Positions 10,509-31,454 of a stretch of 31,500 bases of DNA are shown here, one piece after another. The position numbers were made by a program, and so were the translations under genes. The DNA is from a virus, in IMG/VR virus record IMGVR_UViG_3300025009_000303, positions 1 to 31,500 of that record; one strand, 5' to 3'. How positions within the stretch are numbered: the stretch's first letter is position 1; each line of letters begins with the position of its first letter. The notes below the pieces were generated by a model that was not told the DNA's origin, made no database searches, and was given only the letters and a program-made list of their open reading frames with translations.

Positions 10509-10997
10509 CTACCTTATAGACAGAGACTTGCCCTGCAAAAGCTCTGCGCCAGGTACCGATACTCCGGCTTTGAGATCATCCTTGATCGCGGTCTTGGAAA
10601 GCTGTGGTTCCTGAACTATGAAATACTTCGCAGGAATTACCGCCTGATCTATGATCTTGACGGCGGGCGGGTTGAGCTTAAATTTTGCCTCGAATATCCC
10701 CGCATGGACCGACTCCATGTTCAGCCGGTTCATCGTATCCGATAAATACGTCCGCAACCATAAACCCTTGTTCTCCAGCGCGTTTCTGCGCCCCGCAAGG
10801 TGTTTCTCTTCGGCCTTGATCGCGTCCGCCTGTCCTTCAAGGTTCCTGATAAACCGTATGATGTTTTCAGCCTTGTCCTCGAACGCTTCTCCGATTTCAT
10901 CCAGCGCCGCTTGCCGTGCCGCTACGGTGTCGGGATCGTCGCCCTCAATCTCCATAATCTCCACATACCGCGTCGCAATGTCATACATCGATTCCAT
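10509..10997 (-). CDS. Siphovirus Gp157-family protein
   Basis: Protein of 162 residues. It starts with MYDIATRYVEIMEIEGDDPD, has a coiled-coil middle (IRFIRNLEGQADAIKAEEK, then LAGRRNALENKGLWLRTYLS) and a conserved end (FKLNPPAVKIIDQAVIPAKYF). This matches the Gp157 family, first noted in Streptococcus phages and usually placed next to recombination or annealing genes. The biochemical role is not established. The ATG at 10997 lies just after the upstream stop. The family call is confident. Confidence 0.8.
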   Translation of the reverse strand: MESMYDIATRYVEIMEIEGDDPDTVAARQAALDEIGEAFEDKAENIIRFIRNLEGQADAIKAEEKHLAGRRNALENKGLWLRTYLSDTMNRLNMESVHAGIFEAKFKLNPPAVKIIDQAVIPAKYFIVQEPQLSKTAIKDDLKAGVSVPGAELLQGKSLSIR

Positions 10998-12813: not shown

Positions 12814-13046
12814 ACGCCGTCCTTTGGTTTCGCTATGCCCTCAAGTACCCCGATGCCGAGAAGCGACGCGCCGACGATGACAAGGGTCTTCCCTGCGTCC
12901 AATGCCGTTACAGGGTCAACGACTACCCTGAACATGGCCGCAACGCCTACAGCAAGCAGGAGCAAGCCCCCCGCGCCGATTAGGATAGCGCCGAACGTCC
13001 GCTTTGACGATTGAACGCCCGGAGATTCTTCAAGTAGTCCTGTCAT
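12810..13046 (-). CDS. Small two-pass membrane protein, possible holin
   Basis: Protein of 78 residues with two membrane segments (FGAILIGAGGLLLLAVGVAA and LVIVGASLLGIGVLEGIA) joined by a short loop (RVVVDPVTALDAGK). The neighbours are the candidate lysin and the i-spanin, coupled by ATGA overlaps on both sides. This is a typical holin position, but the protein has no specific family match that I recognise. Confidence 0.5.
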   Translation of the reverse strand: MTGLLEESPGVQSSKRTFGAILIGAGGLLLLAVGVAAMFRVVVDPVTALDAGKTLVIVGASLLGIGVLEGIAKPKDGV

Positions 13047-13456
13047 ACGATCCTCCTAAAAATGCGCTTGTCGATGCACTTTCCTTGCTTCAAGGTTTCC
13101 GAGTTGCCGAGCGAGTCCCACAAGGATCCATCCGGGCGACGCAATGCGAAATGCTCATGATACCCGCTTTTCTGATGTGTGTACGCCCATTTCTCGATGG
13201 ATATTTCAGAGGGCAGGGGGATATAGGTGGCTTTCTCTGGCCGATAGCTCCACTCCCCGCCCGCGCACATCTCCATGAAAAGCTCTTGTTTCCGCACGGT
13301 CATGTCCGCGTCGAGATATTTAAGCAGTTGCCCACGGATTACCATATCAACGGCGGTATGGGGCGGGCAGCCCGGTTGCCCTGCCTCCACGATGCACAGG
13401 GCGAAGCATCCCGACTCACCCATGGCCGCGAAAAGGCGTTGTATACCAGCGGTCAT
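13043..13456 (-). CDS. Candidate cysteine-peptidase-like lysin (DUF261-like)
   Basis: Protein of 137 residues in the lysis cluster. GCFALC near the N-terminus (Cys17), HFALRRPDG (His102) and WDSLGNS (Asp114) give a Cys-His-Asp order seen in papain/NlpC-type peptidases. The layout recalls DUF261 proteins, which I remember mainly from spirochaete phages and plasmids. No other endolysin is visible, so this may be the peptidoglycan-cutting enzyme. That is inference: the family has no proven activity that I know of. It starts by ATGA overlap. Confidence 0.45.
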   Translation of the reverse strand: MTAGIQRLFAAMGESGCFALCIVEAGQPGCPPHTAVDMVIRGQLLKYLDADMTVRKQELFMEMCAGGEWSYRPEKATYIPLPSEISIEKWAYTHQKSGYHEHFALRRPDGSLWDSLGNSETLKQGKCIDKRIFRRIV

Positions 13457-13809
13457 TTTCCTACCTCTCCGCCCGTGGCCTCGGAGTGCAAAAAATCATT
13501 TGTCGCTTCGTTAGCGGCTTCCAGATACTTCCCGCTTAACGTGCTTTTGTCGATAGCCTTGACGATATTGCCGTTTATCTGGCCCTTTTGGACTACATCA
13601 AGAATCGTGTCGACAACATGGAGAATACCGCCCAGGCATTGCCCCTGCTTTTCCAGCACCTGGAATATGGCATACTCGCCCCGGCGTAGTTGTCCCACGT
13701 TTTCCGGCAGCCTGGATCGACGGCGCAGGCTAGACACGGCCCACACGATAAACGCCGCTATTAACGTACTGCCCACGCCGATCATGACTCCTTGTGTTAC
13801 TTCGCTCAT
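13453..13809 (-). CDS. Single-pass membrane protein of lysis cluster
   Basis: Protein of 118 residues with an N-terminal membrane segment (GVMIGVGSTLIAAFIVWAV, residues 7-25) followed by a basic stop-transfer stretch (RRRSRLP). The cytoplasmic part (GEYAIFQVLEKQGQCLGGIL; LHVVDTILDVVQKGQING) resembles a helical phage protein with no known role. It is the first gene after the Avd remnant and starts the lysis block. A holin-related or accessory role is possible. Confidence 0.5.
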   Translation of the reverse strand: MSEVTQGVMIGVGSTLIAAFIVWAVSSLRRRSRLPENVGQLRRGEYAIFQVLEKQGQCLGGILHVVDTILDVVQKGQINGNIVKAIDKSTLSGKYLEAANEATNDFLHSEATGGEVGK

Positions 13810-13891: not shown

Positions 13892-14032
13892 CTACTTTAT
13901 CTCATCGCTGTGCGACAGGCTCGCGTTAAATTCGTCCAGCGTATGCCTTTCGCTCTTGGGATAATTTTTAAGAGCAATATAGGCATACGCCGCCATGTCT
14001 TCCCATTTCGTCAGTACCGTTAATCCTTCCAT
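13892..14032 (-). pseudogene. Truncated Avd-like DGR accessory protein
   Basis: A 46-codon ORF right after the tail fibre gene, with GGAG nine bases before the ATG. LTVLTKWEDMAAYAYIALKN followed by YPKSERHTL matches the first helices of DGR accessory (Avd) four-helix-bundle proteins, which typically read WEDM...YGY.AL.QFPKSERHTL. Intact members are about 110-130 residues. Here similarity stops after residue 32 and the ORF ends 14 residues later (DEFNASLSHSDEIK). No other frame restores the rest before the next gene at 13809. In intact DGRs, Avd follows the variable protein and precedes the template repeat and reverse transcriptase. Confidence 0.6.
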
Positions 14033-14056
14033 TTTCAGGGCTCCAAGAATAAAGAA

Positions 14057-15964
14057 TCAAGAAGAAATAAAAGCAGGACGAAACCCGACAACGTCGAGCA
14101 CGCTCGAGCGCGGACTATACAGACCCAAGGCAGCCAGACCCGCATCCGCCCCGGCGTACCAGCAACCCCCACAGATCGGAAGCCTTTCCGTATCTGCGCT
14201 TACCGACAAATTTCCTTTGGGGGTAAAAGGATTGGCAGAAGCGTGAGTAAGCCGCGTCGTAACCCCGGCGAGCATTAGCTTTCGACGCACCTCAAGATCG
14301 AGACTATCATAGGAAGCGTCCATAACCTGTGCTGTATGAACTACCGACGCCGCATAAGCCCCGGCATGTACCGATCCCCATAACTTCGCGTTGCCGTCGA
14401 AGAAAGCTCCCGTTGTCGGCCAGCTCGCTTCTGCCAACTCGAAATAGTTATCGTCCGTCAGGAAAATTTCGCCGTTGTTGAGCTTGAGCTGATCCGTCCA
14501 GCGCCAGACATCCCCCACCATATCGAAAATGCCCCATCGGTCATGGTTGTGTGACCAGAAACGCGGACCTGATCCGTTCCGATGCTTGGCTGTTCCCGAA
14601 GCAAGCCCAGGGGCAAGGCTGTCAAATCGGATTGCCGTTTCGTTGAATTGGTAGCCTGATTCATGTGTTTGACCGTACTGGGTATTCCCACGCGGCTCCA
14701 TGGCCCCTTTCACCGCCAAGAGGGTGATAAGGTTGTTTTCCCAAACGGAGCCAAGATGCCAGCCCGCTCCCTTATTCACACAAAGGGCTTTTGATGCGTC
14801 GAAGTTGAGCGATGCCGTTGGAAACAATCCCGGCCAGCATACAGCCCTCGCTCCCGCCCCGCTATTGTAGGAGGTGGCGCTATACATCGAATAAAGGATT
14901 TCATTCTTCTCGACACCGTTGACAACAAAGGCAGGATGCACGGGGCCGATGGCGGTAACGTTGATTGTGGCATTTGTTCCCGTGCCCCCGGTCGTGGCGA
15001 GGCCATTGGCGACGGCATATCCCGTCCCCTGCGCGGCTCTTCTTATTGTCAGCACGGCACCCGATCCATCTACGGTAAGGACTCTGTAAATCCCGCCCGA
15101 TGCCCCTGATTTTACAACGGTCAAGAGGTCGTTTGCAGTATACCCGGCTCCGCCCGCCCCAAGAGTAGCGGTCTTGATCCCTGTAGTAGAGCCATAATCG
15201 GCATGGAGATAGCCGTTTAGTTTTGGGCCTGAGAGGATATACATCATCGACGGATACCCAAGATCGTCAACCTTCGCGGTAACCGCTCCGCCTGAAGCCG
15301 CTTCGACCATTTCCCGCAAGAGCGCGGAAGGCATCTTGGCAGCGGTATCGTAGTCCCAGAGGGCGGTTTCCGCTTCGGCGGCGGCAAGTTTTGCGAGATG
15401 GGTATACCCTGCCGTCAATGCGGTTTTTTCTGCGGCAGTCACACGCTTATATGTTGTCCCTTCGGTGATGTTGTCCAGCGTTAGCGCGGCCTTTATCTGC
15501 GCCCAGGTAGTTTTCTGTGCGGCGTGAGCGGCGGATATGCTCGGTATGATGTCGGCATCAGCGGGCGTTGCGGTTGCCGCTCCGCCTTCGATCTTGCCGA
15601 TAATCCACGCCCAGATGTTCGCCCATGTGTACCAGAGCAGGGTATGATCGGACTTTACTCCGACCGCCTTGTCTGTATCTGCAGGGGCCGCCGTTTCGGT
15701 ACCCGATTCAATGGCGGCGGCGACGCCTTCTTTGTCGGTCACGTCGGCCAGCGCCTCGATGCCGTCCAGCTTCGTGATCTGCGCGGCGGTCGCCTTGCCG
15801 TCTGCGGCTGCGGTAGCGGCTGGAAGCAGCGCGGCCAGCGCCGTCGGGGAGTCGAGCGCATCAGCGCACGCCTTCACTCCCTCGTCGATGTGGTTTAGGT
15901 TTGCGGCTGAAAGCGGGGGAGCCGTGCCGTTGATAAAATCAAGCTCTGTGTATCCTATCGACAT
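14057..15964 (-). CDS. Tail fibre / receptor-binding protein with DGR-type C-lectin domain
   Basis: Protein of 635 residues. The N-terminal 200 residues are Ala/Thr-rich and repetitive, a typical fibre shaft. A middle section (residues about 250-340) is glycine-rich and beta-like. From about residue 345 it carries a formylglycine-enzyme-like C-type lectin fold (WHLGSVWENNLITLLAVKGA; WGIFDMVGDVWRWTD). It ends with the DGR variable-region signature CGGCWYAGADAGLAALGLYS through GFRPAF. Such proteins sit at the tail tip and bind host receptors. I chose ATG 15964 because GGAG lies five bases upstream; an in-frame GTG at 15970 is the alternative. Confidence 0.8.
   Translation of the reverse strand: MSIGYTELDFINGTAPPLSAANLNHIDEGVKACADALDSPTALAALLPAATAAADGKATAAQITKLDGIEALADVTDKEGVAAAIESGTETAAPADTDKAVGVKSDHTLLWYTWANIWAWIIGKIEGGAATATPADADIIPSISAAHAAQKTTWAQIKAALTLDNITEGTTYKRVTAAEKTALTAGYTHLAKLAAAEAETALWDYDTAAKMPSALLREMVEAASGGAVTAKVDDLGYPSMMYILSGPKLNGYLHADYGSTTGIKTATLGAGGAGYTANDLLTVVKSGASGGIYRVLTVDGSGAVLTIRRAAQGTGYAVANGLATTGGTGTNATINVTAIGPVHPAFVVNGVEKNEILYSMYSATSYNSGAGARAVCWPGLFPTASLNFDASKALCVNKGAGWHLGSVWENNLITLLAVKGAMEPRGNTQYGQTHESGYQFNETAIRFDSLAPGLASGTAKHRNGSGPRFWSHNHDRWGIFDMVGDVWRWTDQLKLNNGEIFLTDDNYFELAEASWPTTGAFFDGNAKLWGSVHAGAYAASVVHTAQVMDASYDSLDLEVRRKLMLAGVTTRLTHASANPFTPKGNLSVSADTERLPICGGCWYAGADAGLAALGLYSPRSSVLDVVGFRPAFISS
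14072..14175 (-). other. DGR-type variable region (VR)
   Basis: The last 38 codons of the fibre gene follow the layout of DGR variable regions. The positions that are Asn (AAY) in typical template repeats are here Cys601, Tyr603, Ala604, Asp607, Gly614, Tyr616, Ser617, Ser621, Leu623, Asp624 and Val625. All eleven codons end in C or T (TGC, TAC, GCC, GAT, GGT, TAT, AGT, AGC, CTC, GAC, GTT), as expected if AAY codons were mutated at adenines. The framework (GG-W, AGLAAL, R-S, GFRPA) is intact. I found no second copy in the window that could be the template repeat. Confidence 0.65.
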
Positions 15965-16010
15965 ATTCACTCCTTCCTTGTGGTTTTACCGCGTACCGCC
16001 AAAATTACTA

Positions 16011-26329: not shown

Positions 26330-26505
26330 CCCTTTCTCCTTGCCTTTTTAGGCTTTGGCTCTGCGGTGACTGGTTGCGCGGGCTCTACCTTCTCGGCAAG
26401 CCCGCCTGCAACCAACTCAGCGGCCAACGTATCTGGCAGATCGCGGAGGCCAGGCCCCCATGATCCGTCAAGGCCGCTAACCGCCGATTTCAGCTTTACG
26501 ATCAC
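26326..26505 (-). CDS. Small head-region protein
   Basis: Protein of 59 residues (MIVKLKSAVSGLDGSWGPGL at the start). I chose the GTG at 26505, which overlaps the capsid stop (GTGA); the ATG at 26544 would overlap the capsid gene more and extends into its coding frame. The C-terminus is basic and proline-rich (QPVTAEPKPKKARRKG). Short proteins of this kind, with a central DLPDTLAAELVAGGLAE, are often seen between capsid and connector genes. The role is unknown. Confidence 0.55.
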   Translation of the reverse strand: MIVKLKSAVSGLDGSWGPGLRDLPDTLAAELVAGGLAEKVEPAQPVTAEPKPKKARRKG

Positions 26506-27620
26506 GCGTGCATCGCCAAGAGTTCGAGCGCCGAAGTGTCCCACAGCTTGCCGTCAATGCGCTCGGCAAAGTCCCAGTTGGTCGCATGGGTGTCTGCGTT
26601 CTCCGTGACCTTGAGAGCCAGATTCGGGCGGCGCTCTCCGATTGCGTACCCGCCGAAGTTCACGCAGGCGATTACCTTCGCGCTGTTGGTGATTTCCGGG
26701 CAGTTCGAGTCACGGATAACCGGCTTCCCGAACAGGGTAGCGAAGGGCGAATTGTGCATCCGATCCTCGAAGTAGTAGATTGGGGGAGTGCCGGAGTCGT
26801 TGAGAGCGCGGAGCACGGCGGCGGTCGTCGAGTGCATGACGTACACAGGGCCGCGATATGTTGCGGGGTTGTTCGGGTCGTAAGCGCCCACAGCGCCCCA
26901 CTCCTGGCCAAGCAGCTCGTCGAAGGCCACAAGTTCGGCATAGGTGATCGCGGAGGCGGAAGCAGCGGTCTTGGTTGCCGTCTCGACGAAGATGCCCTTT
27001 GGCTGGCTGGAACCCGTGCCGGTGAGGAAAAGATCGTTTTCGGCCTTGGCAATGGCAACGGCTGCGAGCTTCTGGAAGATCGCAAAACGTTCAAGCACGG
27101 TGTCCTCGGTGGCTTCCTCGGTGATCGAGTAGCGCCCGCCGACCTTGACCAGCGCCATCGTAACGGCTGAGGGTTCGCCCTTGTCGGCGTAGGAACCGGC
27201 CTCGGCGATGATCGCGGCTGCGTTCTTTATTACGTCAGCCGTGAAGGTGAGCGAGCCGGAGGGAGCGCCGAACACCTGAGCACCCCATCGCCTGGCGATG
27301 GAATAGAAGTTCAGGTTTGCCAAGAAGTCGGGCATGGCAACCGTCGGGATGCCGAATCCGTCCGTGGTCTTTATGATCGCGGCGGAGTCCTTGGGGTTGA
27401 ACCTGCCCATGAGCAACGGGACAAGCAGATCGGAAACCTTGTCGCTGCGTACCTGGTTTTCAAGCGCCCGCCCAGCGGGAACCATCTTAAGAACCACAGG
27501 CGCAACCTTGTCGGTTATCAATTTCAGGAAATTCTCGTCCTGGGCGAGGTCGAGGCCGGGTGCTCCGGCCTGGGGAGCCGCAACCTGTGCGGACTGGGTC
27601 TGGATGGTATTTTCGTCCAT
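26502..27620 (-). CDS. Possible free major capsid protein from internal start
   Basis: Inside the fusion, ATG at 27620 (Met221, MDENTIQTQ) is preceded by AAGGAG with six bases spacing (27627-27632), a near-ideal ribosome binding site. Translation from there gives a 372-residue capsid protein without protease. Capsids need hundreds of capsid subunits and few proteases, so in-frame nested expression, as in lambda C/Nu3, would set the ratio. This is seen in the sequence but not proven. Confidence 0.55.
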   Translation of the reverse strand: MDENTIQTQSAQVAAPQAGAPGLDLAQDENFLKLITDKVAPVVLKMVPAGRALENQVRSDKVSDLLVPLLMGRFNPKDSAAIIKTTDGFGIPTVAMPDFLANLNFYSIARRWGAQVFGAPSGSLTFTADVIKNAAAIIAEAGSYADKGEPSAVTMALVKVGGRYSITEEATEDTVLERFAIFQKLAAVAIAKAENDLFLTGTGSSQPKGIFVETATKTAASASAITYAELVAFDELLGQEWGAVGAYDPNNPATYRGPVYVMHSTTAAVLRALNDSGTPPIYYFEDRMHNSPFATLFGKPVIRDSNCPEITNSAKVIACVNFGGYAIGERRPNLALKVTENADTHATNWDFAERIDGKLWDTSALELLAMHA

Positions 27621-28280
27621 GACCGTCTCCTTTGTTTCAGGCGCGGTTTCCGCGTCCTGATGCGATGCCAAGAGCGCCAACGGCGCTTTTCTAAAACCAT
27701 ATTTCTCTATGTTGAGACAGGCGGCGGCTTGCGCAGTCTCCTCAACGCGGGAAGCAAAGCCATACTCCACAGCGTCTGCTGCGGATATCCACGTCTCATC
27801 GGCCATCATTTTGATAATCTCGTCACGGGTAAGGGCAGATCGCTCGGTGTACAGATTGATTATGTCCTCTTTCATCTGATCCATGGTCGATGCCATTTTC
27901 CGCAAGTCCTCGGAGGTGCCGATTGCGAATGTCCAGGGATCGTGAATCATTAGATAGGTGCCCCGATCCATGATAAGCTCTTTTCCCGCAAGGGCGACAA
28001 CCGAACCCATCGACGCGGCAAGGCCGACAACCTCAACGGTCAGCCGATCTTTAACCCTCGAGAGGATATTATAGATTGCCCAGCCATCGGTCACGACGCC
28101 GCCCGGTGAGTTTATATTCAGGTGGATAGACTTTCGTCCCTTGATCTTGTCAAACTCGGCCTTGAAGTCCTCGACGCTCTGGCCCCATCCGCCTATTTCG
28201 TCGAATAGGCTTATCTCGGCTTCATCATCGGCAAGGTCTACAAAGCGGAACCAGGGGCGCTTTTCTTTTTCGTCTTTCAC
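26502..28280 (-). CDS. ClpP-like prohead protease fused to HK97-type major capsid protein
   Basis: A 592-residue fusion. Residues 1-200 are a ClpP/S14-type protease: NSPGG (58-61), nucleophile Ser90 in GLAASMGS, His113 in MIHDPW and probable Asp161 in MADETWIS. Residues 221-592 are the HK97-fold capsid protein (LLMGRFNPKDSAAIIKTTDG; GSLTFTADVI; EDTVLERFAIFQKLAAVAIA; TGTGSSQPKGIF). The short middle replaces a long delta-domain scaffold. The protease would cut itself and the precursor during maturation. It starts with GTG overlapping the portal stop (GTGA). An internal start is listed separately. Confidence 0.85.
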   Translation of the reverse strand: MKDEKEKRPWFRFVDLADDEAEISLFDEIGGWGQSVEDFKAEFDKIKGRKSIHLNINSPGGVVTDGWAIYNILSRVKDRLTVEVVGLAASMGSVVALAGKELIMDRGTYLMIHDPWTFAIGTSEDLRKMASTMDQMKEDIINLYTERSALTRDEIIKMMADETWISAADAVEYGFASRVEETAQAAACLNIEKYGFRKAPLALLASHQDAETAPETKETVMDENTIQTQSAQVAAPQAGAPGLDLAQDENFLKLITDKVAPVVLKMVPAGRALENQVRSDKVSDLLVPLLMGRFNPKDSAAIIKTTDGFGIPTVAMPDFLANLNFYSIARRWGAQVFGAPSGSLTFTADVIKNAAAIIAEAGSYADKGEPSAVTMALVKVGGRYSITEEATEDTVLERFAIFQKLAAVAIAKAENDLFLTGTGSSQPKGIFVETATKTAASASAITYAELVAFDELLGQEWGAVGAYDPNNPATYRGPVYVMHSTTAAVLRALNDSGTPPIYYFEDRMHNSPFATLFGKPVIRDSNCPEITNSAKVIACVNFGGYAIGERRPNLALKVTENADTHATNWDFAERIDGKLWDTSALELLAMHA

Positions 28281-29476: not shown

Positions 29477-31002
29477 AGGGCGATAATCCCCCTTGTCTCG
29501 TAGACGCTCTCGCCGTCGCCCTCGTGCCTGATTGCTCGGTCAAGCGCCATGATGAGTGCCACGATACCGTCGATCTTTTCGGTTGACTTCTCTTTGTCAG
29601 GCTTCAGGTTCCCGGCGGGGTCTTTGCGTACTACCATGTTATCGGCCATCCAGCGCAGTACAGGATTCCCGCCATGCCGTATCTTGTGGCCTAACACGAG
29701 GTTCAACAATTCCTTGGTTGGCCCTGACATCGACTGGAAGCCCTGCCCAAAGGGTACCATTGTCGCTCCGTCATCCTCAAGGTCACGCACAAGCTGGGAA
29801 GCGTTCCAGCGGTCATAGGCAATCTCAAGGATCTGATATCTCTCGCCCAAGTCCCGTACCTTTTCGCGGATCGCGTTATAGTCAATAGTGTTTCCTGGCG
29901 TTGTCTCGATGTACCCTGCGTCTACCCATTGAGCATACATCTCGTGATCGTGCTTCGTGCGGAGCGTATCCTCGGGAATCCAGAAATGCGGCATGACATC
30001 GAATGTCCCTTCGTCGTTGATGTGCACCATTACAAAGGCTGCAATATCCGTAGTCGATGCAAGGTCAAGCCCCGCGTACATCTCGCCGTCTGAGTCTAAA
30101 TCCTCAAGAGGTAGGCAAGCGTCCCAATGCGACATTGGCAGGAATCGGCTCTCTTGCTTTACCCATTGGTTAAGTCTGAGTTGCCGGAAAGTGTTTTCAA
30201 GCGCCGGGGTTTCCTGCGCCATCTTGCAGGCTTCGCGTACTGAGTTTATGGATATTGTATGGTCAAGGGAGGGATTGCATTTATACCAGACTCCCTCATC
30301 TGTCCAGTCATCGTCATCCTTCGCATAGTACAGCACGGGGAGAAATGAAGGATCGTCAACAATCCCCTCTGCAACCTTGCGCGCATACTCGTGCTGTTCA
30401 AAGCATATCGAATGCCGGTCATATCCCGCCGTTGTAATGGCAAAGAATATAGGCTGTAGCCGTGCGTCGCCTGATCCGGCGGTCAGTACGTCCCATAGCT
30501 CCCGGTTCGGCTGGGCGTGGAGTTCGTCGAAGATTACCGCCTGAGTATTGAAGCCGTGTTTAGTATGTGCCTCAGCGGAAAGTACGCGGTATACGCCGCC
30601 GTTGTTGTGGATTATGCGTTTTGTCGAATCTATGATTTTACAGCGTCGAGCGAGAGCAGGGGAGTTACGTACCATTTCGGCAGCAACGTTGAACACGATA
30701 GCGGCCTGATCGCGGTCAGAAGCAGCACTGTATATCTCAGCGCCCGGCTCATTGTCGGCAAACAGTAGGCGCAAAGCAATGCCAGCGCCTAGCTCAGATT
30801 TTCCATTCTTCTTCGGAATTTCAACGTACACGCGCTTGTACTGTCTGGTTCCATCGGCCTTGACGGTGCCGAATAGCTTGCCGATAACTTCTTTTTGCCA
30901 GGGTAGCAGTTCGAACGGAGTTCCAGCCCAGCGGCCTTTCGTGTGAGTAAGATAGCGCGGAAACCAATCGATTGCGCGCTGGGCCAGGTCTGGGTTAAAC
31001 AT
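29473..31002 (-). CDS. terL: Terminase large subunit
   Basis: Packaging ATPase-nuclease of 509 residues. The ATPase part has PFELLPWQKEVIGKLFG, a Walker A-like EIPKKNGKSELGAG and Walker B VIFDELHAQP. The nuclease part begins at MYAGLDLASTTDIAAFVMVH, with further acidic residues in ILEIAYDRWNASQL. The GNLKPDKEKSTEKIDGIVAL end is typical of the HK97/YmfN type (Terminase_1). It cuts concatemeric DNA and drives it through the portal. Its ATG overlaps the small terminase stop (TGATG). Confidence 0.95.
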   Translation of the reverse strand: MFNPDLAQRAIDWFPRYLTHTKGRWAGTPFELLPWQKEVIGKLFGTVKADGTRQYKRVYVEIPKKNGKSELGAGIALRLLFADNEPGAEIYSAASDRDQAAIVFNVAAEMVRNSPALARRCKIIDSTKRIIHNNGGVYRVLSAEAHTKHGFNTQAVIFDELHAQPNRELWDVLTAGSGDARLQPIFFAITTAGYDRHSICFEQHEYARKVAEGIVDDPSFLPVLYYAKDDDDWTDEGVWYKCNPSLDHTISINSVREACKMAQETPALENTFRQLRLNQWVKQESRFLPMSHWDACLPLEDLDSDGEMYAGLDLASTTDIAAFVMVHINDEGTFDVMPHFWIPEDTLRTKHDHEMYAQWVDAGYIETTPGNTIDYNAIREKVRDLGERYQILEIAYDRWNASQLVRDLEDDGATMVPFGQGFQSMSGPTKELLNLVLGHKIRHGGNPVLRWMADNMVVRKDPAGNLKPDKEKSTEKIDGIVALIMALDRAIRHEGDGESVYETRGIIAL

Positions 31003-31454
31003 CAGTCTAAATCCTCATCCCCGCCGTCATCTTTCGGTGTCAGGTCAATCCGGCTTCGAGCGCTCGGAGTGAATCCGAACTGTATCGCAAAGTCTTTAAC
31101 CTGCTTCATTGCCGTGTTCGCCATTGCCACTTCCGGCCTCGGCATAACGTAGCCGGTAGCCGTTTCGAATACGTGCCCCTTCTCTTGGATAACCGCCTCT
31201 GCCTGTTGCAGATCGGAATACGCTTTGCAGTAACACGCAAATGCTGCAAGATCGCCAGCGGTCAGCATCGCAAGATTGCCAAGCTCCGGGCCAATCCTCG
31301 CCCACTCTTTTCTGGCAAGCTCATCGAGCCATGAAGGGCAGGCCGGTACTTTCGGGCTAAACTTAGGCGGGCGCTTCCTGTTCTTCTCATGCCCTTTATT
31401 GCCCTCAAGCCGCTTGACCTCGTCAGGCTTCGGTGCTGGCCCTCGTACTCCCAT
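31002..31454 (-). CDS. terS: Terminase small subunit (P27 family)
   Basis: Protein of 150 residues. It starts MGVRGPAPKPDEVKRLEGNK, has PACPSWLDELARKEWARIGP and LTAGDLAAFACYCKAYSDL, and ends with FGFTPSARSRIDLTP, the P27/phage-terminase small subunit pattern. It recognises the cos or pac site and recruits the large subunit. A GGTGGGGG ribosome binding site lies upstream in the last bases of the window. The gene before it is outside the right edge, unless the ends join to the HNH gene. Confidence 0.9.
   Translation of the reverse strand: MGVRGPAPKPDEVKRLEGNKGHEKNRKRPPKFSPKVPACPSWLDELARKEWARIGPELGNLAMLTAGDLAAFACYCKAYSDLQQAEAVIQEKGHVFETATGYVMPRPEVAMANTAMKQVKDFAIQFGFTPSARSRIDLTPKDDGGDEDLD

Follow-up and report, generated by a model that had tools for sequence, protein, structure and literature searches.

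The tail fibre gene analysed here lies in a window that comprises a whole IMG/VR record (IMGVR_UViG_3300025009_000303, 31,500 b, classed as linear) and very probably encodes a formerly diversified receptor-binding protein, frozen after deletion of the remainder of Avd, the template repeat (TR) and the reverse transcriptase (RT) of its DGR. The deletion, together with the marks it left and the adenine-biased changes in the variable region (VR), was read by comparison with phage relatives; the frozen state, the deletion size and the order of events are what we infer from the locus. The fibre and its VR are as follows.

14057..15970, minus strand: tail fibre / receptor-binding protein, 637 aa (phrog_2889, E 4e-74)
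14078..14182, minus strand: DGR-type VR, LPICGGCWYAGADAGLAALGLYSPRSSVLDVVGFR, with differences biased to template adenines

The C-terminus of the fibre (about residues 331–637, the last 307 residues) is an FGE-type C-lectin domain. A 27-sequence fibre profile matched TaqVP (PDB 5vf4), the DGR variable protein of Thermus aquaticus (PMC6328139), over nearly the whole length (E 1.6e-121), and the same entry was the top PDB match of the predicted fibre model (mean pLDDT 82; TM 0.83 by query length), which would give the fibre the TaqVP-like FGE-type C-lectin fold of a DGR target. Fibre relatives were also sought in bacterial genomes and none was confirmed there. FGE-type fibres of the same family, with no RT in the record, are present in the cultured Vibrio/Pseudoalteromonas phages 1.137.O, pYD38-B and KB12-38.

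That the fibre ends in a DGR-type VR had been proposed in the initial annotation and is borne out by the adenine bias, with the position amended from 14072–14175 to the VR codons running from 14182 to 14078. The template used for this comparison was that of a relative, G002 (IMGVR_UViG_3300005259_000008), not the window's own: at codon positions 1 and 2, the window VR differs from the G002 TR at 18/25 A sites and at 5/53 others (Fisher p = 4e-8), and over all 117 nt at 18/25 A sites and 21/92 others (p 9e-6). All 11 AAY codons of the G002 TR are replaced in the window (by TGC, TAC, GCC, GAT, GGT, TAT, AGT, AGC, CTC, GAC and GTT), and the third position stays C or T in every one of them. Measured against a relative's template, the changes thus cluster at adenines in the AAY to NNY manner of a DGR target, and the window VR carries what reads as the mark of past adenine mutagenesis. 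No unusually stable fold was found after the VR of the window, G002 or G001 (a further fibre relative) when a BPP-1-like hairpin was looked for.

Neither RT nor TR was in sight in the initial annotation, and searches within the record found neither. The 31.5 kb was negative for RT with the Pfam profile, which was positive in relatives and controls, and with the G002 RT as query. A TR inside the window or in G001 was considered and rejected, none being found in either; the best second match to the window VR in the record carries 29 non-A mismatches in 112 nt. By the same scoring, the near-RT copy had 0–2 non-A mismatches in 108 nt in 12/17 DGR relatives, in which VR and near-RT copy differ at 10–15 A sites. 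With Avd incomplete as well, the record holds no RT, no matching TR and no complete Avd, all of them parts of a functional DGR.

What remains of the cassette is found in a short ORF just past the fibre.

13892..14032, minus strand: ORF of 46 codons, starting 24 nt after the fibre stop
13937..14032, minus strand: avd codons 1–32, remnant (start to YPKSERHTL), by match to Pfam, PHROG and the G002 Avd
13892..13936, minus strand: last 14 codons and stop of a tail-fibre-assembly-like gene, DEFNASLSHSDEIK, by match to the C-termini of relatives
13453..13809, minus strand: next gene, with a 66% identical homologue in the relative G006
13043..13456, minus strand: DUF261-family gene, next on the same strand, by sequence match

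The ORF had been described at the outset as matching only the first 32 residues of Avd, and on this Pfam, PHROG and G002 agree: residues 7–34 match positions 4–31 of 107 of Pfam bAvd (E 8.5e-5, under the curated cut-off), residues 2–32 match PHROG 3206 ('Avd protein of DGR', E 1.9e-6), and residues 1–32 are 88% identical to the same residues of the intact 114-residue Avd of G002, with 13/18 nucleotide differences between stump and G002 avd being synonymous. Past residue 32 the similarity to the G002 Avd breaks off abruptly. A frameshifted continuation was rejected, since a search of the record with stop codons read through found no further Avd sequence. The fragment would accordingly be classed as homologous to Avd (PF22296 / PHROG 3206), with homology short of the whole length that full membership asks for. 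On a rival view, the 46-aa product is either a mini-Avd that works or a small protein of unrelated origin, and the fibre ends in a conserved FGE fold that only resembles a VR and never belonged to a DGR. The RT-less records of the three cultured phages with FGE-type fibres are in its favour, but it is almost certainly wrong given the 88% identity to a real Avd and its abrupt end after 32 residues, the adenine bias of the VR differences and the match of the ORF tail to another gene; the homologues of the ORF show Avd and not the unrelated full-length gene that had been named at the outset as an outcome that would overturn the deletion reading.

The intact arrangement is seen in G002, the fibre of which is 64% identical to the window fibre in the best segment. 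Its order is variable fibre, Avd, TR, RT (355 aa) and a tail-fibre-assembly gene (89 aa; PHROG 8746, E 5e-11), and L004, more distantly related, repeats this order from variable protein through Avd and TR to RT; it is also the order given for known DGRs in the initial annotation. Loci fetched by the G002 RT usually have the variable protein before Avd and Avd before RT, in a sample that is biased for gene order by recruitment through the RT. G002 and the window are alike in having homologous fibres, the 88% identical Avd start and VR-to-TR mismatches that are mainly at adenines and third codon positions; G002 keeps the full Avd, TR, RT and assembly gene; all that is left in the window is the VR, the Avd stump and the final assembly-like codons. 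The VR of G002 is largely a run of N (L013 2099-2118), which might reflect an assembly broken by variation or by the repeat; the window VR assembled cleanly.

The end-points of the deletion were located by comparing the ORF tail with relatives. On both strands of the entire 37.8 kb of G001, the stretch most like its first 27 nt (23/27, with 18 for the runner-up) is the C-terminus of an 88-aa gene directly following the fibre; in 16.4 kb of G007 the closest stretch (19/27, with 17 for the runner-up) is again a C-terminus, that of the homologous gene. The assembly-like gene of the G001 type is in turn homologous to the G002 assembly gene (32% identity over 69 aa). At the protein level the match of the ORF tail to G001 is short (8/17 aa identical), which counts against the deletion reading. 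The possibility that the ORF is Avd plus random codons was ruled out because its last 14 codons match the assembly-like C-terminus, and this match places the far end of the deletion inside a second gene. The frames at the junction read RHTL-AAS in G002 avd, RHTL-DEFNASL in the window and QTIADFNASL or QTIAEFNASL in the assembly-like genes, and aligning these reading frames puts the junction at 13936/13937, give or take one or two codons. The deletion suspected in the initial annotation is supported by an intact locus in G002 and a window sequence in which avd codon 32 is directly succeeded by the final assembly-like codons; the presence of an intact homologous locus and of identifiable deletion end-points marks the locus as a DGR remnant. 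Judged by the G002 map, the deletion would have removed about 1.8 kb.

The following course of events is proposed. The ancestor of the window would have carried a DGR of standard layout: variable fibre, avd, TR, RT, then tail-fibre-assembly gene. A deletion of roughly 1.8 kb would have brought avd codon 32 up against the assembly-like gene at about its codon 73. TR and RT would have been lost entirely, Avd and the assembly gene for the greater part, and what was left is the in-frame fusion of 46 codons, which probably has no function. The fibre would retain the last mutated VR that it received and would since have changed only by ordinary mutation and recombination. In the reconstituted BPP-1 system, inactivation of bRT, Avd or TR cuts homing to about 1e-9 (PMC12875486); since mutagenic homing requires RT, Avd and TR, the fibre is most likely frozen. 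The junction could also have been made by the assembler, as a chimera in which the avd of a DGR phage was joined to the end of another strain's assembly-like gene; the record is a metagenomic contig, and variable regions can break assemblies, as the N run in the G002 VR illustrates. Such an origin is most unlikely, however, because at the junction the relatives of the two supposed parents have no more than scattered bases in common, far below an assembler k-mer, the fusion is in frame and the next gene begins 82 nt beyond its stop. The start of that gene at 13809 is the one given initially, to which the sequence had been said to pass directly from the Avd fragment; the gene occupies a place comparable to the one taken by membrane genes behind the assembly-like gene of G001 and G007.

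No more than four close members of the fibre family came to light, namely the window, G001, G002 and G007. Of their records, only that of G002 contains an RT; the lack of RT in 3/4 is a statement about records that are fragments or of unproven completeness. In G007 (IMGVR_UViG_3300028629_000001, L018 4680-5972), a ParB-like gene is inserted in avd and the RT is absent. Its copy at the TR position differs from its own VR at 17/25 sites that are A in the G002 TR and at 3/80 others (p 6e-11), and looks by this pattern to have been adenine-mutagenised itself, as if the template had been overwritten. G001 (IMGVR_UViG_3300034416_000014) is without avd, TR and RT in its 37.8 kb record; its VR (L002 9292-9408) equals the G002 TR at 76/80 non-A sites although the fibre is otherwise diverged (third-position identity about 25% in the codons immediately ahead of the VR), a hint of a shared or recently lost template. 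As the window, G001 and G007 differ in their lesions, the cis DGR seems to have been lost or to have decayed in more than one way in this fibre lineage.

The G001 VR also bears on whether the window fibre is still diversified in trans by the RT and TR of a host, a prophage or a co-infecting phage, with the cis machinery being dispensable. Its likeness to the G002 TR in a diverged fibre would mean that template sequence can be shared across diverged phages, the VR reading frame of the window is intact, targets in Pseudogulbenkiania lie more than 370 kb from the RT and have a mutated RT beside them (PMC3521204), and the BPP-1 DGR and its target function on separate plasmids (PMC12875486). Diversification in trans is nevertheless improbable. 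Neither the 2.9 million viral contigs of IMG/VR nor 84,980 prokaryote genomes yielded a TR fitting the window VR, in a scan with a partly fixed pattern that allowed adenine at putative diversified codons and may miss variants, and in collections that may not cover the host; the same kind of pattern for the G001 VR recovered only G001 itself, so that the scan works. Third-position identity to the G002 TR is moreover no nearer for the window VR (0.60) than for the G007 VR (0.57), and little nearer than for the VR of a distant DGR (0.51). A literature search, which was not exhaustive, found no published case of the DGR of one phage writing the fibre of another. A wider form of the idea, in which phages of this lineage repeatedly drop their own DGR and use VRs written by the DGR of a co-resident phage or prophage, with the G001 VR as a trace and the window as a second instance, is an unlikely one; if true, hypervariable fibres would be the shared goods of a phage community.

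Compared with known systems, the frozen fibre of the window has the same FGE-type C-lectin fold and C-terminal VR as TaqVP of the Thermus aquaticus prophage DGR (5vf4), which has been described with avd and TR (PMC6328139), whereas the window is without complete avd and without TR. Inactivated DGRs are listed in DiGReF for Ruminococcus gnavus, Acaryochloris marina and Bacteroides sp. 9_1_42FAA (PMC3521204); like the window, they have broken machinery with adenine substitutions persisting in the VR, but their RT is truncated or interrupted and the TR is kept, whereas the window has lost both RT and TR completely, and it is the fusion of avd and assembly gene that reveals the event. The remote targets of Pseudogulbenkiania sp. 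NH8B are also VR-bearing genes beside dead DGR machinery (PMC3521204), but their genome carries intact RT and TR at another site, whereas none was found in the window record. Because DGRs with a broken RT and remote targets are already known, the window is a clear new example and not a new system. It would be a clear example of a phage ceasing to hypermutate its receptor-binding protein, in which the junction is pinned down to one or two codons, a relative still shows the likely ancestral state and two more relatives are RT-less in other ways, and it now allows comparison of when a DGR is worth keeping and what becomes of the fibre afterwards. It also cautions against equating a DGR-type VR in a phage with an active DGR. 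Among other DGR loci, L068 and L085 have a tandem pair of Avd–RT sets in one locus.

On the minus strand, the record runs from the small terminase (31002-31454) through large terminase, portal, capsid genes and tail genes to the fibre, and left of the fibre come the post-fibre genes and then the early genes (excision factor, methyltransferases, Gam, replication) to the left end. No DNA-level relatives of the window were found among cultured phages. At 31.5 kb, as against 36–44 kb in relatives, the linear record is probably incomplete, which counts against the deletion reading and would suit a cassette that has moved to, or another DGR located in, an unsequenced part of the phage genome. This is very unlikely, however, as the avd stump is at the canonical site, most of the DGR relatives examined have their cassette behind the variable fibre, and the presence of small terminase through early genes means that little of the genome is likely to be missing. 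In the capsid region, head maturation protease and major capsid protein are apparently fused in one ORF of 592 aa (26502-28280, minus strand), and the early region contains a Mu Gam-like end-protection gene (10509-10997, minus strand; phrog_253, E 1e-41).
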